From positions 765,902 through 829,901 of the forward strand of contig NZ_KB889965.1 of assembly GCF_000372865.1 (NCBI RefSeq): a DNA stretch of 64,000 nt. The letters run 5' to 3'. A program made the position numbers and the translations under genes. The notes under the pieces are model-generated. The model was given only the letters and a program-made list of their open reading frames with translations, ran no database searches and was not told the DNA's origin. Source of the stretch: Methylosarcina fibrata AML-C10. GTDB taxonomy: Bacteria; Pseudomonadota; Gammaproteobacteria; Methylococcales; Methylomonadaceae. Shown here piece by piece: positions 5,758 through 34,688 of the stretch (within the stretch, counting starts at the first letter, position 1; every line of letters begins with the position of its first letter).

Positions 5758-6930
5758 TTATTTTGAAATGGTAATGCTCGGAATCGCGTTGCCTCTAGGC
5801 AATTCGGACATCGTCATTTGAAAAATCTGCCACAACACACGAAATGCTTTTTTGTTCCAATTGTAATCCCGGTCCTCTTTAATGGAATAGTATTTACCTT
5901 GGTATTTGACGTTGAAATCCGATTCAGCCGGCAACGCGTCGGATTCCATGATGGCCAGGGTAAAAGTAGGGTTCTCGGAAACAAAAGGGGTACGCGGATC
6001 TTTTTGTATATCGTATTCCGGCTCAGTACCCAACGTCCGGCCGATAAAATAGAGAATATTGCTGAAACTTCTCAGCCTGAATCGGCCATGCAGCGGAAAT
6101 TCGCCTCCCCGATAGCCTTTACGAATGTCTACAATCACGTCATTCACGGCGCTATTTTCGCTCTCTTCGAGGAGTCTGCTTCGTTCTTGTTCCGATAACA
6201 GTTTAAGATCGTAATTGGTAATCACCATCCGGCCTTCCTTGCGTTTGTCGAGATGATAAACTCCTTTTCGAGAATCAAGCGTGATATTGAATTCTTTTTC
6301 TAATTCTTGAAATTCTTTCGGGTTCATTTGGCTGATCGGCAATTGCCAATGCTTTACGACCGTCAGCGGTTCGAAATAGAGTTCGTCCTGATCCTGTATC
6401 GAAGAAAGGTGAAGAACAATCCGGCGAAACAGAGCATAGTCCGTCCTATCTCGAGGACGATTGTGATAGACTTCCTCGGGTTTGCCGTCCATGGCCCGAT
6501 ATTCCAGTACCACCAATCTCAATAACAAATCTATATCGACGTTTTGTCTCAGCAATAAAGCCAGTTTATCTTCGCTGATGGGCGCCAGCATCCGCTTTGT
6601 AAATTCTTCGCCTTGCATCGGCACAATACTAATGGTCGGATTTTCCGCGGCGGCTACCCCGAAGGTTGGAACGAGCGTTGAGCCGCTACTGCCGGTAAGC
6701 GCCGGCGAAACGCCGAGATTGGCTTGAAAATTTAAAGTGGCGGCAATGTTCGATATCCCCGAGAAGTGAATGGGATCATCATTTTTAGCTCTCGCAATAT
6801 TCAAAAGCAATTGTTTGGAAATATCGTTTTGAGTGGCTTCGTTATATGCGAGGGATAAACTGTCCAGAGCAGCGGGTGAAAGGCAGCCGTCTAAAAACAA
6901 CGTCAGGCAGACAACAGTGACTCGAACCAT
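5758..6930 (-). CDS. predicted lipoprotein, function unknown
   Basis: A 390-residue protein with a short hydrophobic leader and a Cys at residue 16 (LDGC), a slightly unusual lipobox with Asp at -2. After it comes a helical stretch resembling outer-membrane-associated proteins (NEATQNDISKQLLLNIARAK), then a Gly/Ser-rich segment. The second half is mixed alpha/beta, with charged helices and a conserved-looking end (WQIFQMTMSE). I do not recognise the family. It converges on the DUF4105 gene and has about 380 bp of non-coding sequence upstream, so it is probably transcribed alone. Confidence 0.7.
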   Translation of the reverse strand: MVRVTVVCLTLFLDGCLSPAALDSLSLAYNEATQNDISKQLLLNIARAKNDDPIHFSGISNIAATLNFQANLGVSPALTGSSGSTLVPTFGVAAAENPTISIVPMQGEEFTKRMLAPISEDKLALLLRQNVDIDLLLRLVVLEYRAMDGKPEEVYHNRPRDRTDYALFRRIVLHLSSIQDQDELYFEPLTVVKHWQLPISQMNPKEFQELEKEFNITLDSRKGVYHLDKRKEGRMVITNYDLKLLSEQERSRLLEESENSAVNDVIVDIRKGYRGGEFPLHGRFRLRSFSNILYFIGRTLGTEPEYDIQKDPRTPFVSENPTFTLAIMESDALPAESDFNVKYQGKYYSIKEDRDYNWNKKAFRVLWQIFQMTMSELPRGNAIPSITISK

Positions 6931-7314
6931 TGAATTGAGAATAATGTTTATTAGTTATGTAAGGCTCTAATAAAAACAGGCGCGCCGATAAGTAGACAAA
7001 CTATATCAACCTATTGCTGCCGCTGTAAATTGAAGGGCATGACCGCGACCGACGCATTCTGATTGAATAGCTTATTCGGCAGAAGCCGGCCGTGATCAGC
7101 GCCGCCCAGGCTGCGAGAGAACCCGCAACGTGCTACCATGTTCTCCGACTCGATATGGGCGCTTGCCGTCCCGGCCAGTTTACCGGTATCTTGCAGCCGC
7201 AGTCTTTTTATAGAGCCGGAAGAGCGGGAACAAGGCGCGAATCCCTTGAATCCTGAAATAGAGTTCTTTCGTTAACGTGTCTTTCCTTTTCACTTGCATT
7301 ACGGAGTCGCCTTC
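6931..7314. other. non-coding gap between divergent genes
   Basis: About 380 bp separate the divergent lipoprotein gene and the DUF1993 gene. It should hold promoters for both. I see no convincing gene, repeat or RNA structure in it. Confidence 0.5.
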
Positions 7315-14610: not shown

Positions 14611-16752
14611 CTAGAGATTGAAAAAATCGTAATGTTCGATGGCTTCCAGGAGGCCCCAGGCGTGCGGCCGCTCGGCAAAGTAGATGGAGTTTGACGACTC
14701 GTCCAGCATCGACAGTTCTTCCCGGTGGCGGTTGGCGACGACGACGCCTAGGGTATTGCCTCGAACCATGTCTTCATCGGCGCCGGAGCCCCCGGCGACC
14801 AGGATCCGTTCCAGCGGAATGTTCCGTTGCCGGGCGAAATAGCGCAAGGCCTGACCTTTGGAGGCTCTGGCCGGAACAACGTCGAAAAATTGCCCGAACG
14901 ACAGGGTCGGATTGACCGACAACTCCTGCTGCCTGAGCAAGGTCAGAATTTCGGCCAGGGGCGGGGCGGCGGCGCCGTCATACAGATAAGACAGTTTAAA
15001 ACGGCTCTGCTCGCTTTTATGTTGCAGCCTCAGACCGGGAAGATCGCCGATCAGGCGCCTTAGCACGCGCGGCGTCCACAAATGATCGATGTGGTAGGTC
15101 CAGGCGATGTCGGCCAGCAATTGGGGCGTATAATAAATTTCGGTGCCGAGGCTGGTAATCAGGATATCCGGCAGCGGAATGCGGTGTTTTTTCAGTACCG
15201 CCAGCGTCGAATCGAGCCGCCGGCCGGTGGCGATGCCGAAGATCAGGCGTTTGCGATTGCCCCGGATGGTGCGGACGAACTCTTCCAGGCCGGCTTCGTC
15301 CCCGAGCAGGGTATGGTCGATATCGGTGAACAGCGCATGGTTCCGGTAGCGGCCGGTTTTCGCGATGAGCGGTGTTTTTGGAAGGCGCACCGTATGCAGC
15401 GTCAGCGGCTGGACTTTGTCCAGATAGGCCTCTGCGTGCGCGTCCCAGGAATAATGGCGGGCGACGTTGCGCAGGCCGTTTTCGGAAAATTCGCGCCAAA
15501 GCTCCGGGTTGTCCAGGATCGTCAACAGCGCTTCGGCAATCGCCGTTTTGTCCAGAGGATCGACCAGCAAACCGTTTCGGCAGTTACCGATGATGTCCAC
15601 CGGACCGCCGTTCTCGGTGGCCACCAAAGGCAATCCGCTGGCGGCCGCTTCCAGCAGCGTCAAACCGAACGGCTCGGTCAGGGCCGGATTGACGAAAACG
15701 CCGTGCGACGCCGCCGCCAGACGGTAAATATCGGCCACTTCTTCCGGAGCATGGCGCTTGGGCAGAGCGATCCGGCCGTAGAGATCGTGATAATCGGCGA
15801 CCAGCAATAACTCGGTCAGCACCGACTGGGGGCCTTCGCCCATTTCCCGGATGTCCTCGCGGTTGCCGGCGACGATCACCAGATTGGCCAGTTGCCGCAG
15901 GCGCGGCGATTCTCCGTAAGCTTCCAGAAGCGTCACGATGTTTTTCCGTTCGTCGGGCCGGCAGAGAGCCAGTATCATCGGTTTTTCCGGCGCGATCAGG
16001 AATTTTTCGAGGGTTTGGGCGAAGGCGGCTTCATTGCCGTCCGAGCCCGGAGGATGAAATTTTTCCAGGTCGGTTCCGGGCGGCACGACCGCCATCCGGT
16101 CCGACGAATGGCAATCGTAAAGCTCGTACTGGTCTTCGATTTCGTTGCGGGTGCTGGTGATGACCAGATCGGCATTGGTCAGGGTTTCTTCTTCGGCATC
16201 GATGCGCCGGGACATGTGGTAGCGCTGCTCGATGTCCGCCATCGTCAAGCCCAGAGCGAGCAGCCTTCGGCATTTGTCCCGGCCCAGGGAATGGCCGGTG
16301 TGAACGAGCGGCAAGCCGGTCCAATGCGCAAGGCGGACTCCGACGTAGCCTGCGTCGGCGTAATGGCTGTGCAGAAGATCCGGCCAGCGCGGCTGCCGGT
16401 GCAGCCAGCTCAGCAGATTGTCGGCAAAATAATCCAGGTGGTCCCAGAGTTCTTCCTTGCGGATATAGGCTTCGGGGCCGGCGTCGATGCGGACGATTTG
16501 CGCGTTTTCCGCCAAAGGCTCGACCGGTTCCGCATAGGAAAAGTCCACGCTGCCGTCGACGATCCGTCTCGTCACCAGATCGACCCGCTCGACCAGAGGC
16601 TGTTTAGCCAGCGCTTTGGCCAGTTCGACTACGTATTTGGTCTGACCGCCGGTGTCCGCGTCGCGCCCCAATTCCAGATCGCGGCCGCGAATCAGGCCGT
16701 GAATGCTGATCAATACGATATACAGCGAAGCGGTCTTGGTATTTTCAAGCAT
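14611..16752 (-). CDS. sps: sucrose-phosphate synthase
   Basis: A 713-residue protein with a GT-B glycosyltransferase domain (about 1-450) and a HAD-type phosphatase-like tail (about 470-700). It joins a UDP- or ADP-activated glucose to fructose-6-phosphate. Motifs are SIHGLIRGRDLELGRDADTGG at the start (acceptor loop), HSHYADAGYVG, the donor-site FVNPALTEPFGLTLLEAAA, and the HAD motif I FTDIDHTLLG. HAD motif IV reads GGSGADED, not GDSGND, so the tail may be inactive. The ATG at 16752 has GAGAGA with 9-nt spacing; an ATG at 16761 sits directly on that site. It is the first gene of the operon. Confidence 0.94.
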   Translation of the reverse strand: MLENTKTASLYIVLISIHGLIRGRDLELGRDADTGGQTKYVVELAKALAKQPLVERVDLVTRRIVDGSVDFSYAEPVEPLAENAQIVRIDAGPEAYIRKEELWDHLDYFADNLLSWLHRQPRWPDLLHSHYADAGYVGVRLAHWTGLPLVHTGHSLGRDKCRRLLALGLTMADIEQRYHMSRRIDAEEETLTNADLVITSTRNEIEDQYELYDCHSSDRMAVVPPGTDLEKFHPPGSDGNEAAFAQTLEKFLIAPEKPMILALCRPDERKNIVTLLEAYGESPRLRQLANLVIVAGNREDIREMGEGPQSVLTELLLVADYHDLYGRIALPKRHAPEEVADIYRLAAASHGVFVNPALTEPFGLTLLEAAASGLPLVATENGGPVDIIGNCRNGLLVDPLDKTAIAEALLTILDNPELWREFSENGLRNVARHYSWDAHAEAYLDKVQPLTLHTVRLPKTPLIAKTGRYRNHALFTDIDHTLLGDEAGLEEFVRTIRGNRKRLIFGIATGRRLDSTLAVLKKHRIPLPDILITSLGTEIYYTPQLLADIAWTYHIDHLWTPRVLRRLIGDLPGLRLQHKSEQSRFKLSYLYDGAAAPPLAEILTLLRQQELSVNPTLSFGQFFDVVPARASKGQALRYFARQRNIPLERILVAGGSGADEDMVRGNTLGVVVANRHREELSMLDESSNSIYFAERPHAWGLLEAIEHYDFFNL

Positions 16753-16849
16753 GACAATCATTCTCTCAAATAAAGATCCTTCCGAAAATGATTAGACCGA
16801 GGTTGGCGCAGGAGGTTTACAAAAAGTCGGGAAAGAATGGGACGGGAAT

Positions 16850-19338: not shown

Positions 19339-20151
19339 ATGGATTCTATGTTTGAACAACTGCTGTCCCAGGTGATGGCCATCGCAATCGATGCGGGCAG
19401 GGCCATTATGGAGATTTATGAACAGCCCGCAGGCAATGTCGTATTGAAACCGGACCAATCGCCTTTGACGGAAGCGGATCTGGCGTCTCATCGCATCATT
19501 ACCGAAGGCTTGTCGAAACTGGAGCCGAAATGGCCAATTCTTTCCGAGGAATCGACTCAGATTCCCCCGGAACGGCGCCAGAGCTGGCCGAGATTCTGGC
19601 TGGTCGACCCGCTGGACGGAACCAAGGAGTTCCTGAAGCATAATGGTGAGTTCACGGTCAACATCGCTCTGATCGACAACGGTTCTCCCGTGCTGGGCAT
19701 TGTTCATGCGCCGGCTCTGAACGTCTGTTATGCCGGAGCGAAAGGACTGGGCGCCTACGTGCAGCGCGGCGATGCCGAAAAGCAGCGTATCGAAGTCGTA
19801 CCGCACCGGGAAAACGAGCCGCTTCGCATAGTCGCCAGCCGTTCGCACAGCGACCCCAGGACCGCAGCCCTTCTCGAACGACTGGGAGACCATGAATGCG
19901 TCGGCATGGGCAGCTCCCTCAAGCTGTGCCTGGTGGCCGAAGGCGTGGCGCATCTTTATCCGCGTTTGGGTCCGACCATGGAATGGGACACCGCCGCGGC
20001 GCATGCCGTGGTCAATGAAGCGGGCGGCATGGTTTGCGACATTTCGGGACGCGAGCTCGCATACAATAAGGCCGATTTACATAATCCCGAATTTTTCGTA
20101 CTGGGAAAAACCGAACAGGCAATGCTGGCAACCCTCAGGCACTGGATATGA
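19339..20151 (+). CDS. cysQ: 3'(2'),5'-bisphosphate nucleotidase CysQ
   Basis: A 270-residue member of the inositol-monophosphatase superfamily. Metal-binding motifs are SEES near residue 70, [12 protein letters not shown] near 92, and the C-terminal [11 protein letters not shown] near 215. CysQ turns PAP, the by-product of PAPS-dependent sulfotransfer or PAPS reduction, into AMP. It overlaps cysC by 4 nt (ATGA), so PAPS formation and PAP removal are co-expressed. The start could also be the ATG at 19348. A sulfotransferase lies in the same run of genes. Confidence 0.93.
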
Positions 20152-20771
20152 ACGATACCAACACAAACTTCACCTCAACCAATGTTGTCTGGCATCATGC
20201 GACCGTCACCCGCGAGCGTCGGGAACAATTAAACGGCCACCGGGGCGCGATACTCTGGTTTACCGGTTTATCGGGCGCCGGCAAATCGACTCTGGCGCAC
20301 GCGGTCGAAGAAAAGCTGCATCAAATGGGCTGCCGAACCTTCGTTCTGGATGGGGACAACGTCCGCCACGGCTTGTGCGGCGATCTGGGTTTTACCACCG
20401 AAGCGCGCATCGAAAACATCCGCCGGGTCGGCGAAGTCGCCAAACTGTTCATGGAAGCGGGCGTTATTGTCCTGACCGCTTTCATATCGCCTTATCGGGC
20501 CGACCGCGACCGCGTGCGCAGCATGGTGGTTCCCGGCGATTTTCTGGAAATTTATTGCAACAGCCCGATTGAAATTTGCGAGACCCGCGACGTCAAGGGC
20601 CTCTACAAAAAAGCGCGCGCCGGGCAAATACAGGAATTCACGGGAATTTCCTCTCCCTACGAAGTTCCGCTTCATCCCGATCTGACGGTCGATACCGGCT
20701 CCGTGGATCTGGATGCGTGCGTTCAGCAAACTCTGAAGTTTTTGGCGGGCAATCAGGTCATCAGGCTCTAA
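20148..20771 (+). CDS. cysC: adenylyl-sulfate kinase CysC
   Basis: A 207-residue APS kinase that phosphorylates APS to PAPS, the universal sulfate donor. The P-loop GLSGAGKST is at residues 40-48, followed by DGDNVRHGL, the APS-binding [10 protein letters not shown] and the lid segment GLYKKARAG. No ATP sulfurylase (cysDN) is nearby, so APS must come from elsewhere in the genome. Its start overlaps the cysQ stop. Placement at the head of a glycan locus with a sulfotransferase suggests use in sulfation as well as, or in place of, cysteine synthesis. Confidence 0.95.
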
Positions 20772-21027: not shown

Positions 21028-23022
21028 ATGAAATCTCTTCACTATCGACCGGACATCGATGGCTTGCGAGCGGTTGCCATTGGTTCCGTGGTACTCTATC
21101 ACCTGGATTTTTCAACATTCAGCGGCGGATATACCGGCGTCGATGTCTTTTTTGTGATATCGGGTTTTCTGATTACTTCCATCCTTTATCGGGAAATCGG
21201 CAATCGGAGTTTTTCCTTTATTTCCTTTTACGAGCGGCGAATACGGCGAATTTTCCCGGCTCTGTTCGCAGTATTTCTCGGCACTTCGGCTTGCGCTTAT
21301 TTTTTGCTGCTGCCTAAAGATCTCGAGTCGTTTTTTCAAAGCATTACCGCAGCGACCTTATTTTCATCAAACATTTTATTCTGGAAGACGGCCGGTTATT
21401 TCGACTGGCCTGCCGAGATGAAGCCTTTGCTGCATACCTGGTCTTTATCGATCGAAGAGCAGTTTTATATCGTTTATCCTTTGTTGCTGCTATGGATGGC
21501 GCGTTTAGCGCCCGGAAGGACTCCGCTGTGTTTGGCGGGCATCGGATTGGTTTCACTCTTTTCAAGTGAGTTTTTTCTTCATGGCCAATCGCCCTCCGTC
21601 TTTTATTTGCTGCATTTTCGTGCCTGGGAACTGCTGTTGGGCGCTCTGCTGGCCCTTGATATTACGTCTTCTCCAGTGCCGCAGTCTGTACGCGAGGCTC
21701 TTTCTCTTATCGGCTTGATATTGATTGCCGTCGGTGTCTTTATTTTCGATGATCAGACTCTTTTCCCGGGCGTCAAGGCATTATTTCCGTGTTTGGGGGC
21801 GGCTATGATCATTTATGCCGGCAAACAGGGGCACACGGTAATCGGCAAGCTGCTCAGTTTAAAACCTTTGGTGTGGATCGGCCTGATATCGTATTCTTTG
21901 TACCTGTGGCATTGGCCATTGATCGTCTTCGCCAAATATTATGTCGTTCATCCGCTAGAGAATCATGAAAAAGCGATTTTGCTGATTTTTTCATTTTTTC
22001 TGGCCGCCGTGTCATGGCGTTTCGTCGAGCGGCCTTTCCGCGGCAAAAGCGGTGTTCTTTCGAGAAAAACTCTGATCGGCTCTGCCGTGTTAGGAATGAG
22101 CGGCTTTGTTGCAGTCGGTTTACTCGGCCACTTCGCTAAGGGATTTCCGGGCAGACTGCCTGACTCGGTCGTCGCTTTGGCCGATGCTTCGTTTAAAACC
22201 CGGCAGTTGGACGGCAACTGCATCGATATTTCTCGTTCGAGGATCGATAACGGGGAAGCCTGCCTGCTGGGAGATAACTCCGGTACTCCTGCCAGTTTTG
22301 TCGTCTGGGGCGATTCCCATGCACTTGCGATGGGGGAAGCCATTCATCTTGCGGCGGATAAAATCGGAGTAACCGGATTGTTGTTTGCCCATTCGAGTTG
22401 CCCCCCTCTACTGGAAGTGGAGCGTTTCGATGCTTTTGAACGGGGATGCCGTGAATTCAACCAGGCCACCCGGTTGTGGCTGGAAAAAAACAAAAATATC
22501 CGAACCGTGTTTCTGGTGGCGCGTTGGGCCATATCCGCCGAAGGCACGCGCTACGGCAGTGAACCGGGGCGCCCCGTGGTGATTTCGTCCGAGGGAATCA
22601 AAGGCAATCCTCAGGCTTTAAAAGCCGGCCTGCAACGCACTCTGCATTTTCTGAACGAACGCGGCATCCGGGTGGTTCTGGTGGCTCAAATGCCGGAAAT
22701 CGGCTGGAACGTGCCGTCGACACTGGCAAGAGCGCAATTATTCGGTCACCATGTTTCCATGGTCATGCCTACTTACGAGGCTTATCGGGAGCGGCAACAC
22801 ACTATGAGCCGAATAATCGACGAACTTTCGGCGCAGTATCCGTTCAAGGTTTTTGAGGTCGCCCGTGTTATGTGCCCGTCGGATGCTTGCCTCATCGAGA
22901 AGGGCGGGCGTTCCTTCTATAAAGACGATGATCATATCAGCATCTATGGCGCCGAGTTGCTGGCCGAACCCTTAACAGACATGTTTCAAACCCATCTAGC
23001 GGACTACCGGCATGAGAGATAA
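21028..23022 (+). CDS. OafA/YrhL-family O-acyltransferase with SGNH domain
   Basis: A 664-residue membrane acyltransferase. The N-terminal acyltransferase-3 domain (about 1-360) has the motif YRPDIDGLRAVA, the segment FFVISGFLI, and about ten membrane spans. After a linker comes a periplasmic SGNH domain, with VWGDSHA (Ser430) and a C-terminal DDDH (about residue 641) completing the Ser/Asp/His set. Such fusions O-acetylate or otherwise acylate O-antigen or exopolysaccharide sugars. The last 11 nt overlap the next gene. The acyl donor and target sugar are unknown. Confidence 0.9.
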   Translation: MKSLHYRPDIDGLRAVAIGSVVLYHLDFSTFSGGYTGVDVFFVISGFLITSILYREIGNRSFSFISFYERRIRRIFPALFAVFLGTSACAYFLLLPKDLESFFQSITAATLFSSNILFWKTAGYFDWPAEMKPLLHTWSLSIEEQFYIVYPLLLLWMARLAPGRTPLCLAGIGLVSLFSSEFFLHGQSPSVFYLLHFRAWELLLGALLALDITSSPVPQSVREALSLIGLILIAVGVFIFDDQTLFPGVKALFPCLGAAMIIYAGKQGHTVIGKLLSLKPLVWIGLISYSLYLWHWPLIVFAKYYVVHPLENHEKAILLIFSFFLAAVSWRFVERPFRGKSGVLSRKTLIGSAVLGMSGFVAVGLLGHFAKGFPGRLPDSVVALADASFKTRQLDGNCIDISRSRIDNGEACLLGDNSGTPASFVVWGDSHALAMGEAIHLAADKIGVTGLLFAHSSCPPLLEVERFDAFERGCREFNQATRLWLEKNKNIRTVFLVARWAISAEGTRYGSEPGRPVVISSEGIKGNPQALKAGLQRTLHFLNERGIRVVLVAQMPEIGWNVPSTLARAQLFGHHVSMVMPTYEAYRERQHTMSRIIDELSAQYPFKVFEVARVMCPSDACLIEKGGRSFYKDDDHISIYGAELLAEPLTDMFQTHLADYRHER

Positions 23023-24181
23023 TTCGGCATCAAGGCCTCTAGCGATTCATGGAGCCGCGCCTGCCTTCAAAGAACCGCTGCATGTGGGCCGGCCCAATAT
23101 AGGCGATCGCGAAGAGTTTCTGAAATATGCCGAAGAAATATTCGACCGACGCTGGCTCAGCAATAACGGCCCGATGGTGCAGGAGCTCGAGCGGCAAATT
23201 GCCCGGTATCTCGATGTGAAGCATTGTGTCGCCATGTGTAACGGCACGGTGGCCCTGGAAATTGCGATCCGCGCGTTGGCGCTTGAAGGGGAAGTCATCA
23301 TTCCTTCCTACACTTTTATTGCGACCGCTCATGCATTGCATTGGCAGGCCATTACGCCGGTATTCGCCGATATCGATCCGGCTACTCATACCCTCGATGC
23401 CGAAGCGGTCCGCCGTATGATAACGCCTCGTACGACCGGCATCATCGGTGTTCATCTCTGGGGGCGGGGTGCTGCAGTCGAAGAGCTGCAGTCGATTGCG
23501 GACGAGCACGGGCTCCGGTTGATGTTTGATGCGGCGCATGCTTTTGCTTGCTCTCATAAAGGCCGAATGATCGGCAATTTCGGCGCCTGCGAAGTGCTCA
23601 GCTTTCATGCGACCAAGTTTTTCAATACTTTCGAAGGCGGCGCCGTAGTCACCAATAATGATCAATTGGCCGAGACCATGCGGCTGATGCGCAACTTCGG
23701 CTTTGCCGGGCTGGATAATGTAATCTATCCCGGCACCAACGGCAAAATGATCGAAATCGCGGCCGCCATGGGATTGGTCAATCTGCATGCTCTTGACCGG
23801 GTCATCGACGCCAATCTCAGAAACTATCGGATTTATCAGAGGGACCTGGCGGACCTGCCGGGCATTACCCTGCTTTCGTTCGACGAGAGCGAACGCAACA
23901 ACTATCAGTATGTGGTGATGGAAGTGGGAGCAGAGTGTCCGGTCAGTCGTGACCAAATTATTCAGGCTTTGCATGCGGAAAACATACTGGCCCGGAAATA
24001 TTTTTGGCCGGGTTGCCATAAAATGCAGCCTTATCGCGAACTGTATCCGCATGCCGGGCTGTTATTGCCGAATACGGAGCAGGTGGCGGACAGGGTGGTG
24101 GTGCTGCCGACGGGGACCACAGTCAGCGAGGCCGACGCAGCGACAATTTGCGGCATTCTGCGTTCATTTATAAAAGGTTAG
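23012..24181 (+). CDS. DegT/DnrJ/EryC1-family sugar aminotransferase
   Basis: A 389-residue PLP-dependent aminotransferase of the family that aminates nucleotide-linked keto-sugars. The PLP lysine is K202 in SFHATKFFN; other features are NGTVALEIAIRAL, DAAHAFAC and FEGGAVVTNN. The enzyme is expected to convert a 4-keto or 3-keto-6-deoxy sugar nucleotide to the amino sugar. The next gene encodes an N-acyltransferase-like protein 4 nt away, which fits acylation of this amino group. The start overlaps the acyltransferase gene by 11 nt. Regiochemistry and sugar cannot be read from sequence. Confidence 0.9.
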   Translation: MRDNSASRPLAIHGAAPAFKEPLHVGRPNIGDREEFLKYAEEIFDRRWLSNNGPMVQELERQIARYLDVKHCVAMCNGTVALEIAIRALALEGEVIIPSYTFIATAHALHWQAITPVFADIDPATHTLDAEAVRRMITPRTTGIIGVHLWGRGAAVEELQSIADEHGLRLMFDAAHAFACSHKGRMIGNFGACEVLSFHATKFFNTFEGGAVVTNNDQLAETMRLMRNFGFAGLDNVIYPGTNGKMIEIAAAMGLVNLHALDRVIDANLRNYRIYQRDLADLPGITLLSFDESERNNYQYVVMEVGAECPVSRDQIIQALHAENILARKYFWPGCHKMQPYRELYPHAGLLLPNTEQVADRVVVLPTGTTVSEADAATICGILRSFIKG

Positions 24182-24184
24182 AGG

Positions 24185-25132
24185 ATGGAATATATTAAAT
24201 TTAATTCCGCTTTGTCATTTGATGAACTCGTCCATCTGTCCGGAATGATCCTGGGACCGAACCGGACTCCGGAAAAAAAAGTTGTCAGGGAGCCCTTGCC
24301 GCCGGTTATTGGGGTCTCCAACGGCCGAAATGCCGTTCCCGGCACGGTGTGCTTCATCGACAGGATGCCCGATCCGGACGCGCTGGCGCAGTTGAAAGAC
24401 GCTTACATAATCACCGATCGGGAAATTGCAGCGCTGCTGGCCGACTGTGCTTTGATCGTGGTCGACGATCCGAGAGCCTTGTTCATCGATTTCATCAATC
24501 ATATGCTTGCCCGTCGGGATTTTGCCGTGTTCACGTCGTTGATCGCGAGGCCTCCCGCCGTTCATCCGGATACGGATATCCACCCGCGCTCGGTTGTCGA
24601 GGAGGGCGTATCGATCGGTCAAGGGTGCCGGATAGCGGCCGGCTGCGTCATCAAGCAGGGCACCTGCATTGGCAATCATGTCATCGTTCGTGAAAATACG
24701 GTCATCGGCTCAGACGGCATCGCTTTGTATAAGGCAAAAGACGGGCGAGTGCTCCGTTTTCCCCATCTGGCGGGCGTTCTTATTGAGGACAACGTGGAAA
24801 TCGGCGTATCCTGCGTCGTGTCGCGGGGGGTCATGAATTCGACCCGGATCGGCAGGGATACGGTCCTCGGCAATCTGTCCAATGTGGGTCACGGCAGCCA
24901 AATCGGGGCCAAGGTCTGGATGTCGGTGGGGTGCCTGATCGGCGGGAACTCAACGATCGGTGACAACAGCACCCTGGGTTTGGGGGTCAGTTTCCGCGAC
25001 AATTTTCATATCGGCAAAAATTGCTCGATCGGAATGGGATCGGTCGTGGTGAACAATTTGCCGGATAACAGCTCGGTCTTCGGCAACCCGGCCAAACGAT
25101 TGCCCAATGTCAACGCCGGGCCGGAGCGTTAA
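24185..25132 (+). CDS. LpxD-like left-handed beta-helix N-acyltransferase
   Basis: A 315-residue protein resembling LpxD: an N-terminal alpha/beta domain (about 1-110), then many hexapeptide repeats (about 115-305, such as IGQGCR, IGNHVI, IGDNST). A His in NVGHGSQIG (H236) matches the position of the catalytic His of E. coli LpxD, which moves a 3-hydroxyacyl chain from ACP to an amino sugar. It is unlikely to be the lipid A gene: no lpx, fabZ or bamA neighbours, and it sits among an aminotransferase, a ketosynthase and an ACP. It probably acylates the amino sugar made by the preceding enzyme. Confidence 0.8.
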
Positions 25133-25155
25133 ATTAGGAGTCGGAGGAATCATCG

Positions 25156-25758
25156 ATGAAAGTCAGACAGGTCCGGTTTCAATTCAAGGGGGCTCGGCAG
25201 TATATCCAGGGCCCGGATCTTTTCAACAAAATGATCGATGTCGGCTATCCGATCGAGCGTTTGAGCAATATTCGTTTCCATGCACATCATTTTGTTTGTT
25301 CTCCTTTAGCACAGATGTATCTGACCTCTAACCGGGAAGATCTGAATGGGCTGGAGGATATCAGTGCGCGCTGCCAGTTTGATGTCGACCGCACTACCTG
25401 CTGGGTGGCGCTGAAACAGCTGGCCGCCGACGAGGCCGGAGAACGGTGCGATTTCGACGAGGATCGGATCATTTCCTTATGCCGGCTGCGGGGAGAGACG
25501 ATTACGCTGACCGAACCGAGTCCTTTCTCTTTTATTGAAACCATCGTATCGATGAACAAGCATTTGCATCAGAATCTGTTTCCCGAGGCCGGCGGTAAAT
25601 GGATTTTCACCCGGGTGGATCTGGACGCAGGCTGCGAGAAAAGGGAAAAGCTGGAACTGCACTTCAAGCATAATATGCAGTATCGCTTGACTAAGAGCGA
25701 CATATGGGTGGAAGGTCAAAAAATTGGGGATCTCTTTTTTTCATTGGTAAAATCATGA
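25156..25758 (+). CDS. unrecognised protein in acyl module, possibly hotdog fold
   Basis: A 200-residue soluble protein with a strong ribosome binding site (GGAGG at 25143-25147). I do not recognise the family. The C-terminal half has a helix with FIETIVSMNK followed by strands ending DIWVEGQKIGDLFFSLV; this order and the VxG turn resemble FabZ/thioesterase hotdog domains, with the Glu where FabZ keeps its catalytic Glu. The FabZ His motif is absent. The N-terminal half may be a second degenerate copy. It overlaps the ketosynthase gene by 4 nt (ATGA), so it very likely acts on the ACP-bound acyl chain. Confidence 0.65.
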   Translation: MKVRQVRFQFKGARQYIQGPDLFNKMIDVGYPIERLSNIRFHAHHFVCSPLAQMYLTSNREDLNGLEDISARCQFDVDRTTCWVALKQLAADEAGERCDFDEDRIISLCRLRGETITLTEPSPFSFIETIVSMNKHLHQNLFPEAGGKWIFTRVDLDAGCEKREKLELHFKHNMQYRLTKSDIWVEGQKIGDLFFSLVKS

Positions 25759-26693
25759 TTGGCATACAGTCGATAGGAACTTATATTCCCGAAGACCGGA
25801 TCGATAACCGGCAAAGAACCGAGCAATTCGAAGTCGATGAGACTTTTTTATCGGAAAAAACCGGAGCGCTTCGCCTAGCCGTTAAAGCGGACGATGAGGA
25901 GACCTCCGATCTGTGCTGCAAAGCTTTTTACAACTTGCAAAGCAAGACCGGACTGCGGGCCGAGGAGGTCGAATGCGCGGTGGTATGCACCCAAAATCCC
26001 GACCATCATGGTTTGCCTCATACCTCCGCCATTGTTCATGCCAAGCTGGGGCTGCCCGAGAGTTGTCCTGTTTTCGATATTTCTCTCGGCTGCTCAGGCT
26101 TTGTGTACGGGCTGTCGATCATTCAGGGATTCATGCAAGCCAATGGATTCCGCAAGGGCGTATTATTTACTGCCGATCCTTATTCCAAAATAATCGATGA
26201 ACAAGACAAAAATACCAGCCTGTTGTTCGGAGACGGGGCAACCGCAACGCTCATCGGCGATACGCCGGTATGGAGAAGCGGAAAATTTCTGTTTGGTTCT
26301 CAGGGCAAGGAAAGTTCCTCCATCCGGGTGGGAAAAGACAGCGGAAAACTGTCGATGAACGGCCGGGCCGTTTTTTCGTTTTCAGCCACTGTGGTGCCGA
26401 AAAACATTACCGCCATGTTGGCCGCCAATCAATTAACCGTGCAGGATGTCGATCTTTTTGCCCTGCATCAGGGCAGCCGGTATATTATCGATACTCTTAG
26501 GAAAAAACTGGATATCGAAGAACGGAAGGCGCCTTTTGTCGCATTCGATTACGGCAATACCGTTTCTTCTTCGATTCCGCTGATTTTAAGCGACCTCGAC
26601 CCCGACGCCCGCAAAGTGATTGTCATCGCCGGGTTTGGCGTCGGCCTGTCCTGGGCAAGCACCGTATTATTTAAAGTTGATCAAGGAAAATAA
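25755..26693 (+). CDS. FabH-like 3-oxoacyl-ACP synthase III
   Basis: A 312-residue KAS III-family condensing enzyme with an intact triad: C113 (ISLGCSGF), H238 (ALHQGS) and N268 (YGNTVSSS), matching C112/H244/N274 of E. coli FabH. It joins an acyl-CoA or acyl-ACP to malonyl-ACP. It lacks fatty-acid-synthesis neighbours and sits between an unrecognised protein and an ACP, so it is a specialised copy, probably building the short or branched acyl group for the amino sugar. The ATG at 25755 overlaps the previous stop; longer starts from 25704 are rejected. Confidence 0.88.
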   Translation: MIGIQSIGTYIPEDRIDNRQRTEQFEVDETFLSEKTGALRLAVKADDEETSDLCCKAFYNLQSKTGLRAEEVECAVVCTQNPDHHGLPHTSAIVHAKLGLPESCPVFDISLGCSGFVYGLSIIQGFMQANGFRKGVLFTADPYSKIIDEQDKNTSLLFGDGATATLIGDTPVWRSGKFLFGSQGKESSSIRVGKDSGKLSMNGRAVFSFSATVVPKNITAMLAANQLTVQDVDLFALHQGSRYIIDTLRKKLDIEERKAPFVAFDYGNTVSSSIPLILSDLDPDARKVIVIAGFGVGLSWASTVLFKVDQGK

Positions 26694-26696
26694 AAG

Positions 26697-26930
26697 ATGA
26701 AAGCGACTCTAGAAGATATTCTTTCAATCATGGAAAATGCGGGTGTTTCGGCCGACATTTCCGCATTAAAAGGGGATACCAAACTGGATAAGACTGCCGG
26801 CATCGATTCTCTGGAAATGATGAGCGTATTTCTGGGAATTGAAGAAAAATTCGGAATCCATATTCCCGATGATGATCTCGACAGTCTCGATACCATCGAT
26901 GCGATCGTCGGTTATCTGCAGCGTTTGTGA
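26697..26930 (+). CDS. acyl carrier protein
   Basis: A 77-residue acidic four-helix carrier. The phosphopantetheine attachment site is S38 in GIDSLEMM. Length and the second-helix sequence GIEEKFGIHIPDDDLD are typical. It follows the ketosynthase by 3 nt and has AAGGA overlapping the end of that gene, so they are co-translated. It is probably dedicated to the acyl-sugar pathway, since no other fatty acid genes are near. Confidence 0.92.
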   Translation: MKATLEDILSIMENAGVSADISALKGDTKLDKTAGIDSLEMMSVFLGIEEKFGIHIPDDDLDSLDTIDAIVGYLQRL

Positions 26931-27192: not shown

Positions 27193-28662
27193 ATGACCTC
27201 GTTTCAAAACAAAATAGTAAACAGCGTCATCTGGAGCGCCGTCGATGTCGTTTTGCGTCAAGGCATGCAATTTCTCATTCTGATCGTTTTGGCCAGGATT
27301 TTAGCGCCTGAAGATTTCGGGGTCATTGCCTTGCTGGCATTGTTTGTGGGAATAGCCGGCATTTTTGTCGACGGCGGATTCAGTTCGGCGCTCATCCAGA
27401 GGCAGAATGTTACCCGCATCGACGAGTCGACGGTCTTTTATTTTAATTTGGCGATGGGCGTCGCGGCTTCTTTGACGCTGTGTTTTGCGGCACCCTCTAT
27501 TGCCGGTTTGTTCGAAAAGCCGGTAATTGAGCCTCTGATTTACGCGATGGCCCTCAATGTATTCATCAACGCTTTCGGCTCCATCCATACGACGCTTCTG
27601 ACCAAGGAAATGAATTTCAAATTGATCGCCAAAGTCAGCGGAGCGGCTTCCTTTCTGTCCGGAATGCTGGCGATCGTGTTGGCGGTCAAGGGCTTTGGAG
27701 TATGGAGCCTGGCGCTGCAGACACTGGCGGCAAGCCTCGTATCGACGGTTTTGTTATGGAGTTGGCACGCGTGGCGGCCCGTTCTGTCTTTCAGTTGCCA
27801 TTCGTTGCGGTCTTTTTTTCGGTTCGGCGGCTATTTGATGATCGTAGGAATCATCGACACGCTCCATACCAATCTGTATTCGGTTCTTATCGGCAAGTTC
27901 TACCCCATTCAGGAAGTCGGCTACTATGACCGTGCGCAAAAAACGCAGCTACTGCCGGTCAATCTGATTATGCTGGTAATCAACCGGGTGGCTTTTTCCG
28001 CTTTCTCTTCGGTCGCGGAAGAGCGGGAAAGATTGGCCCAGGCGTTTCGTAAAGCGCAGCGGCTGGTCATGTTTGTGAACATCCCCCTTTCGGTGATTAT
28101 CATCGTGCTTGCGGAACCCGTTATTCTGACCTTATTTGGGGAAAAATGGCTGGCTAGCGTCCCCATCCTGCAAGTCCTGGGGATTGTGGGACTGATGTGG
28201 CCCATGCATATTCTTAATATCAACGTGCTCAAGGCTCAGGGACGCTCTGATTTGTTTTTCAATATCATGCTGATAAAGAAAATCGTGGCAATCGGTTTGA
28301 CCGTGGCCGGCAGTTTTTACGGAATCATGGCGATTGCCTGGGCACAGGTGATCGCTTCGATTTTTTCAATCGGGGTGAATGCCTATTACAGCAAGGTTTT
28401 TTTAAATTACGGAGCAGCCCGGCAATTGATGGATCTGCTTCCCAGCCTGTTTATCGCGACTCTTATGGGAGCATTGATGTGGCTGGCGGCGTATGGCTGG
28501 GATTTCTCCTATTATGTCGAGCTGGCGCTGGCCTCATCGGCAGGGGGAGCATACTACCTAATGATGGCTTATTTATTGCGGATCAAGGCGCTTCCGGAAA
28601 TTGGCCGATTATTGTTGAGCAGAAACAAACCCGTTTTGGCAAAGGATCAGATAGCGAGATGA
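27193..28662 (+). CDS. Wzx/WzxC-type oligosaccharide flippase
   Basis: A 489-residue MOP-superfamily membrane protein with about 12-14 predicted spans. The start NKIVNSVIWSAVDVVLRQGMQF and the motif ARILAPEDFGVIAL are typical of TuaB/WzxC-like flippases. It would turn an undecaprenyl-diphosphate-linked oligosaccharide across the inner membrane. The stop overlaps the sulfotransferase start by 4 nt. Specificity is unknown, and no Wzy-type polymerase gene accompanies it here. Confidence 0.9.
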   Translation: MTSFQNKIVNSVIWSAVDVVLRQGMQFLILIVLARILAPEDFGVIALLALFVGIAGIFVDGGFSSALIQRQNVTRIDESTVFYFNLAMGVAASLTLCFAAPSIAGLFEKPVIEPLIYAMALNVFINAFGSIHTTLLTKEMNFKLIAKVSGAASFLSGMLAIVLAVKGFGVWSLALQTLAASLVSTVLLWSWHAWRPVLSFSCHSLRSFFRFGGYLMIVGIIDTLHTNLYSVLIGKFYPIQEVGYYDRAQKTQLLPVNLIMLVINRVAFSAFSSVAEERERLAQAFRKAQRLVMFVNIPLSVIIIVLAEPVILTLFGEKWLASVPILQVLGIVGLMWPMHILNINVLKAQGRSDLFFNIMLIKKIVAIGLTVAGSFYGIMAIAWAQVIASIFSIGVNAYYSKVFLNYGAARQLMDLLPSLFIATLMGALMWLAAYGWDFSYYVELALASSAGGAYYLMMAYLLRIKALPEIGRLLLSRNKPVLAKDQIAR

Positions 28663-29321
28663 CCGGCTTTTTATACAGGCAGTTAAACAAACTATTTTTT
28701 TTTAAAAGACCCAAGATATTTTGTATCGGCGCCAACAAGACAGGCACCACCTCGGTGGAACTGGTGTTTCGTTCTCTCGGGCTGAAGGTCGGCAATCAGG
28801 CCAGGGCTGAGCGGTTGTTACACGACTGGGCGCGGCGGGATTTCCGGAAAATAATCGGTTACTGCCGCCGGGCCGAAGCTTTTCAGGATATTCCCTTTAG
28901 TTATCCCGATACCTTTCGTTACATGGATGAAGCCTTTCCCGGTTCCAAATTCATTTTGACGGTGCGCAATAACTCCGATGAATGGTTTGACTCGCTCGTG
29001 CGGTTCCATACCAAACTGGTGGGTAAAAACCGGATACCCACCGCCGAGGATTTGCGCCGGTTTCATTATCTTTATTCCGGGTTTCTCTGGGACACTCAGC
29101 GGTTTCGTTACGGCGCCGATGAGTCCACTTTGTATGACCGTCAGTTATACACTCGCTGCTATGAAGAGCATAATCGGGCGGTGCTGTCCTATTTCAAGAA
29201 CAGGCCGGATGACCTGCTGGTTTTAAACGTCGCCGAGCCCGAGGCAATGAAGAAGCTGTTAACCTTTTTGGGTTATGCCTATTCCGGTCAAAAAATGCCG
29301 CATGTGAATGCATCCAAATGA
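28659..29321 (+). CDS. PAPS-dependent sulfotransferase
   Basis: A 220-residue sulfotransferase-family protein. The 5'-phosphosulfate loop GANKTGTTS is at residues 24-32, and the 3'-phosphate region reads TVRNNSDEWFDS near 107. These contact PAPS in known carbohydrate sulfotransferases. It starts in an ATGA overlap with the flippase gene, so it belongs to the glycan pathway. With cysC and cysQ at the head of the locus it predicts sulfation of a glycan or lipid. Length is on the short side, as in bacterial family members. The acceptor is unknown. Confidence 0.85.
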   Translation: MTGFLYRQLNKLFFFKRPKIFCIGANKTGTTSVELVFRSLGLKVGNQARAERLLHDWARRDFRKIIGYCRRAEAFQDIPFSYPDTFRYMDEAFPGSKFILTVRNNSDEWFDSLVRFHTKLVGKNRIPTAEDLRRFHYLYSGFLWDTQRFRYGADESTLYDRQLYTRCYEEHNRAVLSYFKNRPDDLLVLNVAEPEAMKKLLTFLGYAYSGQKMPHVNASK

Positions 29322-32679: not shown

Positions 32680-33666
32680 ATGAATGTTCCATTGAAACCT
32701 ATTTCTTCCGGTGGAGCCGTCCTGATTACCGGCGCCAACGGATTCATCGGCCGCGAATTGTGCGGCCAACTCTCCGGTCAGGGATGGCGGGTCAGGGCGG
32801 CGGTTCGCTCAGGCCGGCCGATGCTTCGGGCTATCGATACGGTGACGGTCGATGCGATCGATGAAAGGACCGATTGGGGCTCGGCCCTGGACAGCATCGA
32901 TGCGGTCATCCATCTGGCCGGACGCGCGCACGTGGTCAACGATAGCGCGTCGGATCCTTTGGCCGATTTCCGGCGCATCAATGTCGAGGGCACCCGGAAT
33001 CTGGCCCGGCAGGCGGCCGATGCCGGCGTCCGGCGATTTGTGTTTATCAGTTCGATCAAGGTGAACGGCGAAAACACGTCGGCGGATTGTCCTTATACCG
33101 CGGCGGATCGGCCCGCGCCGGCCGATCCCTACGGCATTTCCAAGCACGAAGCGGAAGAAGCCTTGCGCGGTCTGGCCTCGGAGTCGGGCATGGAAATGGT
33201 CATCATCCGTCCGCCTCTGGTTTACGGGCCGGGCGTACAGGGTAATTTTCTGACGATGATGCGCTGGCTCGATAAAGGGATCCCGTTGCCGTTGGGTTGG
33301 ATAGCCAATAAACGGACGCTGGTGGCGTTGAATAATCTGGTCGATTTGATCATCACCTGTATCCATCATCCGGCAGCCGCCAACCAGACCTTTCTTGCCG
33401 GAGACGGCGAGGATTTGTCCACGACGGAGCTCTTGAAAAGATTGGGGGATGCCCTGGGAAAAAAAGCCCGGCTTTTGCCGGTGCCGGTAGCGCTTTTGTC
33501 CCTGTTTCTGGGATTGTTGGGCAAACGGGCGGAAACGCAGAAGCTGTGCGGATCGCTTCGGGTCGACATCGGCAAGACGCGGAATTTGCTGGGCTGGACG
33601 CCGCCGATGAGCGTCGATGAAGCGTTGCGGCAGACGGCCGAGGATTATTTAAGGACAGCCCGATGA
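32680..33666 (+). CDS. SDR nucleotide-sugar epimerase/reductase, WbpV-like
   Basis: A 328-residue extended SDR with the loop TGANGFIG, the segment SSIKVNGE and the catalytic YGISK. Gene order SDR, WbpL-like, WbpM-like matches the end of several Pseudomonas O-antigen loci. There WbpV reduces or epimerises the 4-keto sugar made by WbpM to give UDP-QuiNAc or UDP-FucNAc. The stop overlaps the next gene by 4 nt. The exact product is inferred from neighbours. Confidence 0.85.
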   Translation: MNVPLKPISSGGAVLITGANGFIGRELCGQLSGQGWRVRAAVRSGRPMLRAIDTVTVDAIDERTDWGSALDSIDAVIHLAGRAHVVNDSASDPLADFRRINVEGTRNLARQAADAGVRRFVFISSIKVNGENTSADCPYTAADRPAPADPYGISKHEAEEALRGLASESGMEMVIIRPPLVYGPGVQGNFLTMMRWLDKGIPLPLGWIANKRTLVALNNLVDLIITCIHHPAAANQTFLAGDGEDLSTTELLKRLGDALGKKARLLPVPVALLSLFLGLLGKRAETQKLCGSLRVDIGKTRNLLGWTPPMSVDEALRQTAEDYLRTAR

Positions 33667-34688
33667 CGGAATTGTTGCGGGTGCTGCTGCCGGCTCTGAT
33701 TGCCGCAGCGGTACTGACCGAAGTTTTTCGCCGCTATGCGCTGGCGGCGAATCTAATGGATGCCCCCAATCGGCGCAGTTCTCATGTGCTGCCGACTCCC
33801 CGCGGCGGCGGCCTGGCCATCGTCAGCGTCTTTTTGCCGGGTCTTGCGGTCCTGAACCGCATGGGCTTTTTGCCCGATAACGCGTTATGGGCATTATGCG
33901 GTGCCGGCGGCGTGGTGGCATTGATCGGATTTTGGGACGATCATCGGCATGTTCCGGCGCGCTGGCGGCTGTTGGCGCATTTTCTCGGAGCCGGTTGGGG
34001 ATTGTATTGGCTGGGAGGCATGCCGCCCTTGAGTTTCCTGGGGCATACGCTGGACCTCGGCTGGCTCGGCCATTTTCTGGGATTGATCTATCTGGTGTGG
34101 CTGCTCAATCTCTACAACTTCATGGACGGCATCGACGGCTTGGCCGGCATGGAGACGGTCACCGCGTGCCTGGGCGGCATACTGTTATTATCTATAACAG
34201 CTCAAGACCATTCCCTGGCTTTGCCTCCGGCGCTGTTGGCGTCTGCGGCCGGCGGTTTTTTAGTATGGAATTTTCCACCGGCCAAAATTTTCATGGGCGA
34301 CGTGGGCAGCGGTTTTCTGGGTATGGTTCTGGGTTTGTTTTCGCTCCAGGCCGCCGCCGTTTCGCCGCAGTTCTTCTGGAGCTGGGTTATTTTACTCGGC
34401 CTGTTTATCGTGGATGCCACGTGGACGTTATGCCGCCGGTTTTTTCGCGGCGAGCCCGTGCACGAAGCGCATCGCAGCCACGCCTATCAGAAGGCCTCCC
34501 GCCGGTTCGGCGCGCATCAGCCGGTCACGCTCGCGGCCGCGGCGATCAATCTGGGCTGGCTGATGCCGCTGGCGTTGGCGGTAGGTTTGGGCAAGCTGGA
34601 CGGTGTTCTTGGCGTGGCGCTGGCTTATTTGCCTCTGGTGTTTCTGGCGATCCGGTTCAAAGCGGGCGAGCGGGAGGCCGATCGATGA
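33663..34688 (+). CDS. WbpL/WecA-type undecaprenyl-phosphate sugar-1-phosphate transferase
   Basis: A 341-residue polytopic membrane protein of the MraY/WecA family, with about ten spans. Family motifs are NLYNFMDGIDGLAG (Asp-rich, about residue 144), IFMGDVGSGFLG (about 210) and HEAHRSHAYQ (about 262). It transfers an N-acetylated sugar phosphate to undecaprenyl phosphate and starts the glycan. Start and stop both overlap neighbours by 4 nt. Confidence 0.92.
   Translation: MTELLRVLLPALIAAAVLTEVFRRYALAANLMDAPNRRSSHVLPTPRGGGLAIVSVFLPGLAVLNRMGFLPDNALWALCGAGGVVALIGFWDDHRHVPARWRLLAHFLGAGWGLYWLGGMPPLSFLGHTLDLGWLGHFLGLIYLVWLLNLYNFMDGIDGLAGMETVTACLGGILLLSITAQDHSLALPPALLASAAGGFLVWNFPPAKIFMGDVGSGFLGMVLGLFSLQAAAVSPQFFWSWVILLGLFIVDATWTLCRRFFRGEPVHEAHRSHAYQKASRRFGAHQPVTLAAAAINLGWLMPLALAVGLGKLDGVLGVALAYLPLVFLAIRFKAGEREADR

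Follow-up and report, generated by a model that had tools for sequence, protein, structure and literature searches.

A recurrent five-gene module with a predicted double hot-dog protein, and its proposed role in acylating a surface-glycan amino sugar in Methylosarcina fibrata

What does a surface-glycan locus make with a condensing enzyme and an acyl carrier protein (ACP) of its own? The question is raised by five adjacent genes in a 64,000-nt stretch of the genome of Methylosarcina fibrata AML-C10 (contig NZ_KB889965.1, positions 765,902 to 829,901 of the forward strand); "the window" denotes this whole stretch, and coordinates are given within it. The reading that we favour, to which we assign a probability of roughly 0.62, is that a single amino sugar of the surface glycan, N-acylated with a short chain, is the product of this module. 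The five open reading frames (ORFs) are uninterrupted and tightly packed on one strand:

23012–24181, + strand: DegT/DnrJ sugar aminotransferase, DesI/VioA-like (PF01041, 355.8 bits)
24185–25132, + strand: putative LpxD-like left-handed beta-helix N-acyltransferase, 315 aa (LpxD models, scores below cut-off)
25156–25758, + strand: protein of about 200 aa, here called HD, of an undescribed family with a predicted double hot-dog fold (AlphaFold2 model)
25755–26693, + strand: 3-ketoacyl-ACP synthase III (KAS III), a FabH-like condensing enzyme (PF08545 and PF08541)
26697–26930, + strand: dedicated ACP (PF00550, 34.4 bits; the serine of its DSL motif was read in the translation)

An earlier note, made from the letters of this DNA, had described five adjacent genes here, and all are present as ORFs at the place that it gave. 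The gaps are 3 nt between DegT and the LpxD-like gene, 23 nt between the latter and HD, and 3 nt between KAS III and ACP. The HD and KAS III genes overlap by 4 nt in the sequence ATGA, the KAS III ATG lying at 25755 and the HD TGA at 25756–25758; the longest KAS III ORF begins at 25704.

The strongest evidence that these genes form a unit is their recurrence. A tblastn search for HD in 72,556 plasmid records gave a single match, in Pontibrevibacter nitratireducens (L014), where the order is ACP, LpxD-like, HD, KAS III, FdtA/QdtA, DegT. A scan of genome contigs then gave 14 HD loci in named records from several phyla, of which 13 are distinct (the HD sequences of L017 and L018 are identical, and L026 is from the same species as the plasmid match). 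They come from Methylomicrobium (L015), two further Methylococcaceae, metagenome-assembled genomes (MAGs) of Aeromonadales and Chromatiales, a gammaproteobacterial pair, Thiomicrorhabdus, Thiotrichaceae, Piscirickettsiaceae, Phycisphaerae, Pontibrevibacter, Balneolaceae and Synechococcus RCC307. HD lies immediately 5' of KAS III in all 14, and an ACP gene is nearby in all 14 (12 by scripted search, L026 and L028 by further checks). An LpxD-like gene is present in 12/14 and a DegT gene scoring above 100 bits in 10/14; two of the four loci without such a DegT match lie on contigs that are only 4.6 and 7.8 kb long.

Among 201 genomes of the order there were six HD matches, five of them credible, and the KAS III clade (E 1e-80) was found in exactly the same five genomes. 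The sixth match (G185, E 2.4e-5) was rejected as chance; no module gene lies nearby (L013) and that genome lacks a KAS III of the clade. Three of the five genomes supplied the contigs L015, L016 and L023, and the two surveys are thus not independent. Nevertheless, the shared distribution of HD and the KAS III clade together with the adjacency in every locus indicates an association beyond chance, and the co-occurrence elsewhere that had been anticipated for these genes is borne out. The HD profile found only the source genome itself among 398 phylum-wide genomes, which shows that the family is rare. By its recurrence, the reading of the module as a dedicated pathway is well supported.

Which sugar is modified is suggested by the DegT protein. 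Its best NCBIfam model is TIGR04427 (DesI; 489.7 bits, under the cut-off of 650), and its best match among PDB sequences, 2po3, scores 390.5 bits against 184.6 for the runner-up. We take 2po3 to be DesI, a 4-aminotransferase acting on deoxythymidine diphosphate (dTDP)-4-keto-6-deoxyglucose. By this resemblance DegT would probably aminate dTDP-4-keto-6-deoxyglucose, supplied by an RmlB encoded outside the window (506.6 bits), to give dTDP-4-amino-4,6-dideoxyglucose as the first step of the proposed pathway. In the L020 locus an RmlA-like ORF (judged by its start sequence) and a GDP_Man_Dehyd-type dehydratase gene lie ahead of DegT; FdtA is present in L027, and FdtA/QdtA in Pontibrevibacter. Together with the RmlB of M. 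fibrata, these genes support a dTDP route in which the sugar varies among loci.

The likely acylating enzyme is the LpxD-like protein. Members of the LpxD family use an amine as acceptor and an acyl-ACP as donor, and the catalytic residue of LpxD is a histidine of the beta-helix. The module protein shares with the LpxD of lipid A synthesis the left-handed beta-helix built of hexapeptide repeats, and its His236, which aligns with the region of the LpxD histidine, is kept in 12/12 aligned rows (these rows, like the 14 used for KAS III below, include the window and omit L018 as a near-copy of L017). It differs from LpxD in scoring below the curated cut-offs: the match to the LpxD N-terminal domain is weak (21.0 bits, cut-off 30.8), and in a protein scan the two NCBIfam LpxD models gave 146.1 bits (cut-off 207) and 141.6 bits (TIGR01853, cut-off 242.5). 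When the genome was scanned with TIGR01853, the true LpxD of M. fibrata (G000:C1:3023415) reached 347.8 bits and the module protein 121.6; the two are 30.4% identical over 240 residues. The same separation holds in every HD genome of the order, all five encoding an LpxD over the cut-off at a separate site and a module protein below it (115.7 to 139.7 bits in the four others). A tree of 22 proteins, in which the branches of three module rows are long, joins the five LpxDs in a single clade (97/98) with none of the 12 module proteins inside, and the module protein is therefore distinct from the cell's LpxD, in keeping with the earlier note. From these sequence relationships, the LpxD-like enzyme is predicted to move the acyl group from ACP onto the sugar amine, which would be the fourth step of the pathway.

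As a separate observation, two genomes each encode one extra LpxA-like protein (G000:C1:2672474, L031, and G140:C2:89549, L054); in the tree they are grouped together (98/95) and away from the remaining LpxA-like rows, the name LpxA being given by look only.

The nature of the acyl group would depend on KAS III. Its N- and C-terminal domains score 70.4 and 69.7 bits (PF08545 and PF08541), and like FabH it has the Cys/His/Asn triad. It differs from FabH in carrying HQGS instead of HQAN, in its score with the FabH model TIGR00747 (190 bits, below the cut-off of 292.1) and in being only 27.5% identical to the FabH of M. fibrata, which is encoded elsewhere at a site resembling a plsX-fabH-fabD-fabG locus (plsX and fabD named by eye). 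Both the triad and HQGS are kept in 14/14 aligned rows, so that the catalytic residues reported as intact in this enzyme, as in the LpxD-like protein, are indeed conserved. KAS III enzymes as a rule perform one condensation. The module enzyme is predicted to be an acetoacetyl-ACP maker: in a second step it would carry out a single condensation between a starter CoA ester, most likely acetyl-CoA, and malonyl bound to the private ACP.

The relatives of this KAS III on plasmids outside the HD loci are consistent with a short product. The closest (49.8% identical) is from Pseudomonas veronii and is encoded next to phbB and phbC in a polyhydroxybutyrate (PHB) operon. The second, from Azospirillum sp. 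B510 (L080, pAB510a, 5842–7154; 40.0%), is followed by an ACP-like ORF, with no DegT, LpxD-like, HD or reductase match within about 6 kb on either side. The third, from Burkholderia glumae (L081; 37.5%), accompanies vioA, an ACP, a short-chain dehydrogenase/reductase (SDR) and an acetyltransferase. In the KAS III tree, which has long branches, the group of module enzymes includes those of P. veronii and Azospirillum (99/95); the B. glumae enzyme comes next and FabH lies outside. PHB and 3-hydroxybutanoyl-viosamine, to which two of these three contexts point, are both C4, which makes C4 the simplest reading of chain length; by this analogy the private ACP probably carries a short acyl group of four carbons.

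With regard to the P. veronii plasmid itself (1YdBTEX2, L079, 5136–8930), phbB precedes the KAS III gene, phbC overlaps it, and fabI, ackA and pta lie close by; this KAS III possibly provides a malonyl-CoA route to PHB.

Alternatively, a longer, lipid-like chain could be built and transferred by the LpxD-like enzyme, giving a lipid-like sugar outside lipid A. The presence of an LpxD-like acyltransferase with a dedicated ACP would suit such a product. However, the sole ketosynthase identified is the KAS III, no elongating enzyme being found among the identified genes of the module loci in a scan that covered part of their ORFs. The score of the LpxD-like protein is far under the LpxD cut-offs, and of the three nearest plasmid relatives of KAS III outside the HD loci, one has a PHB and one a viosamine context. 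We consider this alternative unlikely. The earlier note had proposed that a private ACP pathway builds an acyl chain and attaches it to an amino sugar, possibly as a lipid-like group: the dedicated N-acylation is upheld by the recurrence of the module, and the lipid-like character finds no support, given the single KAS III and the C4 contexts of two of its relatives.

The least familiar component is HD. Searches of Pfam, NCBIfam, PHROGs, PADLOC and PDB sequences gave no credible match, only a few at chance level. An AlphaFold2 model from a 15-row alignment (14 distinct) has a mean predicted local distance difference test score (pLDDT) of 94.7 and a predicted template modelling score (pTM) of 0.90, and by Foldseek and VIA-align it is a double hot-dog, nearest to TesB-type thioesterases and to polyketide dehydratase domains. 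The suspicion of a hot-dog protein was thus right at the level of predicted fold. Thirty-five VIA-align rows have Z of at least 10, with 162 to 176 residues aligned at 3.4 to 4.2 Å. The top row is the TesB protein 4r9z (Z 12.1, root-mean-square deviation 3.4 Å, 167 residues aligned), tied within 1 with rows of polyketide synthase (PKS) enzymes, and the fold therefore gives no choice between thioesterase and dehydratase. HD shares the double hot-dog with both groups (Z 10 to 12), whereas PKS dehydratase domains and TesB are mostly 240–290 aa and HD is about 200 aa with no conserved histidine or detected sequence relation to the dehydratases. The polar and aromatic invariants of HD, present in 14/14 distinct rows, are R14, Y16, D21, E102, E128, K135 and W149. 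In the pathway the predicted substrate of HD is either what KAS III produces or the acyl-ACP, and as a third step HD would process or pass on the C4 acyl-ACP, which a general FabG may reduce to 3-hydroxybutyryl-ACP.

Could HD be a dehydratase, FabG and HD together making crotonyl-ACP from acetoacetyl-ACP and thereby giving the sugar an unsaturated C4 amide? The fold lies near that of PKS dehydratase domains (Z about 11), and in the model the invariant E128 is close to where the second long helix begins. Dehydratases of the double hot-dog fold, though, use a histidine with an aspartate or glutamate, and in HD the best histidine column reaches only 6/14; with none conserved, a textbook dehydratase is unlikely. 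Comparison with PKS dehydratases by hhalign also detected no relation, either globally (20 domains, 6 columns) or locally (15 domains with the histidine motif, probability about 0.1%), the dehydratase alignment being rough (L061 unaligned, some rows possibly cut wrongly) and giving no residue mapping. In sequence comparison with the AfsA family (PF03756), 0/15 HD members matched at E up to 1. Across 185 genomes of the class that family gave one sub-threshold match, as did the TesB C-terminal family (PF20789) across 101 genomes of the order. On balance a dehydratase is improbable.

Just as improbable, in our view, is that HD supplies or edits the ACP, whether as a thioesterase or, in the manner of LnmK or Mad, as an ACP-loading acyltransferase/decarboxylase. 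TesB 4r9z is the top structural row, albeit tied with PKS enzymes, but a plain thioesterase would waste the acyl-ACP. LnmK has been described as a double hot-dog decarboxylase, in an account by which a loop asparagine is key in MadB and LnmK uses one too (PMC8666670). HD, however, has no invariant asparagine, its best column being 12/14. LnmK was absent among the best 50 fold matches listed, which excludes nothing.

A second peculiarity of the module is the lack of a linked ketoreductase. BLAST with a partial FabG, PhbB and the B. glumae SDR found a full-length FabG/VioR-type reductase in 0/14 HD loci; as a control, these three reductases found each other. The sole match was a 68-residue partial one in L024, to an ORF whose best match in the window is the epimerase Epi2. 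A reductase motif scan, together with the partial FabG query, likewise found nothing in the 14 loci, the motif being strict and the scan lacking a positive control. Conversely, a search for HD in L079, L080 and L081 was negative (the positive control, L014, is nearly identical to a profile row). HD and a reductase were never seen together in these loci, and Azospirillum has neither, which speaks against a strict either-or of the two; strict replacement of the reductase by HD is therefore only suggested.

Several observations weigh against a short-chain N-acylated sugar as the product. HD displays no recognised catalytic dyad. The C4 systems known have a reductase of their own, namely VioR in P. 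syringae, PhbB in P. veronii and the B. glumae SDR, so that a 3-hydroxy product here would depend on an unlinked FabG. The PHB context is a single example, and the Azospirillum enzyme has only an ACP-like ORF beside it and no match to the other module genes or a reductase nearby, so that related KAS III enzymes also occur elsewhere. LpxD takes long 3-hydroxyacyl chains, and a longer chain remains compatible with the sequence. The module acyltransferases form no clear single clade (37% of bootstrap trees). DegT is distant in L019 (31% identity, 6 kb away), L024 (28%, 4.2 kb) and L027 (28%, 3.3 kb), and since L024 has no LpxD-like gene the acceptor may differ there.

Some of this variation may reflect recruitment of the transferase on more than one occasion. 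This would fit L024, where there is a weak GNAT match only, and L022, where an AAC(3)-type acyltransferase (PF02522; L022:143–949) lies immediately 5' of HD-KAS III-ACP, with DUF4910 downstream; no LpxD-like gene is present on L022, a contig of only 4.6 kb. From the L022 arrangement, HD-KAS III-ACP looks like an acyl-making core, and an alternative acyl acceptor pathway is possible in that organism. It is very improbable that the product is a small acyl metabolite with no connection to the glycan and that the module only happens to be located in the locus: related KAS III enzymes do occur in a PHB operon and in the Azospirillum setting, and 4/14 loci lack a DegT above 100 bits, but 10/14 have one, and Wzx, RmlA-like or FdtA genes surround the module in several.

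An idea of this kind, dedicated N-acylation, has a precedent. For the viosamine island of Pseudomonas syringae, a route based on ACP and KAS III has been described by which a dTDP amino sugar is N-acylated; mass spectrometry of mutants led to dTDP-N-(3-hydroxy-1-oxobutyl)viosamine as the proposed product, and deletion of vioR abolished the modified viosamine (PMC3927599). The chemistry proposed here is drawn by analogy with that island. In pv. tabaci 6605, and in a counterpart in the flagellin glycosylation island of P. aeruginosa PAK, an aminotransferase, KAS III, ACP and acyltransferase are clustered as in our module (PMC3927599). Only the viosamine island has the ketoreductase vioR, the methyltransferase vioM and a VioB of 213 aa and serves flagellin, and the seven-gene table for it has no HD-like gene (PMC3927599). 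Here, in contrast, there are HD, an LpxD-like enzyme of 315 aa and sulfation genes in a glycan locus, and no reductase was found. This island was the only direct parallel found in the open-licence literature, which is weak evidence since subscription journals are mostly outside it. The B. glumae cluster on pBGF3 resembles the module in DegT (38.7% identical) as well as KAS III; it differs in having the SDR and no HD match and in adjoining fliD and fliT, and its acetyltransferase is only 26.9% identical to the module acyltransferase, over 130 aa. What is new here is the HD family, together with an LpxD-like transferase in such a setting.

A more far-reaching reading, which we put forward tentatively and regard as less likely than its failure, is that HD represents a new double hot-dog enzyme family acting without a histidine dyad on KAS III-made beta-ketoacyl-ACP, in the ketoreductase's place. 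The glycan would then carry an acyl amide other than 3-hydroxybutyryl, perhaps sulfated in some loci, and HD-KAS III-ACP would be a portable acyl cassette joined in several phyla to varied sugars (dTDP-4-amino, FdtA-type) and transferases (LpxD-like, AAC(3)-like). HD directly 5' of an HQGS-type KAS III, accompanied by an ACP, is a signature by which an unusual N-acyl amino sugar can be predicted for glycan loci that are still uncharacterised, in organisms that range from gammaproteobacteria to Synechococcus and Balneolaceae. Pontibrevibacter is the only annotated case, and there both HD and the LpxD-like protein are labelled "hypothetical protein". As a compact double hot-dog family tied to defined partners, HD offers a chemistry that is directly testable.

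The surroundings of the module in the window are those of a glycan locus with sulfation genes:

19339–20151, + strand: CysQ, 3'-phosphoadenosine 5'-phosphate (PAP) phosphatase, a sulfation side path (TIGR01331, 307.6 bits, over cut-off)
20148–20771, + strand: adenosine 5'-phosphosulfate (APS) kinase, supplying 3'-phosphoadenosine 5'-phosphosulfate (PAPS) (TIGR00455, 270.2 bits, over cut-off)
21028–23022, + strand: AT3-SGNH membrane acyltransferase, likely glycan-modifying (PF01757 and PF19040)
27193–28662, + strand: Wzx-type flippase of the glycan locus (PF13440, 301.5 bits)
28659–29321, + strand: sulfotransferase, start approximate, the longest ORF beginning at 28479 (PF17784, 77.4 bits on the long ORF)
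33663–34688, + strand: WecA-like GT4 polyprenyl-phosphate glycosyltransferase (PF00953, 122.4 bits)

Glycosyltransferases are also present downstream of the module. In a fifth and last step of the favoured pathway the acylated sugar would enter a Wzx-dependent glycan, in a locus that also encodes an O-acyltransferase and sulfation genes. The AT3-SGNH gene overlaps DegT by 11 nt, and the unit therefore probably starts upstream of 23012; a counterpart of this acyltransferase (65% identity) lies immediately 5' of DegT in L009/L015.

The module is thus flanked by PAPS-supply genes (CysQ and APS kinase, 19339–20771) on one side and by a sulfotransferase on the other. PF17784 is present in 31/201 genomes of the order; three of the five HD genomes carry one, and in these three it is the sole PF17784 of the genome and lies at most 4 kb from HD. 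In 5/14 named loci (L015, L020, L026, L027 and L028) there is either a match to APS kinase or a sulfotransferase supported by Pfam, a count made without a matched control and in which many loci are short contigs. L016:10793–11632, taken by eye as a sulfotransferase, had no Pfam support and was left out of the count. It is possible that the glycan, or even the acyl group, is sulfated. In the Balneolaceae MAG, an ORF of the PAPS reductase family (L027:11728–12432) overlaps the 3' end of the module ACP gene.

Further upstream in the window, on the - strand, 14611–16761 encodes a glycosyltransferase fused to a sucrose-phosphate phosphatase domain; sucrose synthesis is known in methanotrophs, and the gene is consistent with it.

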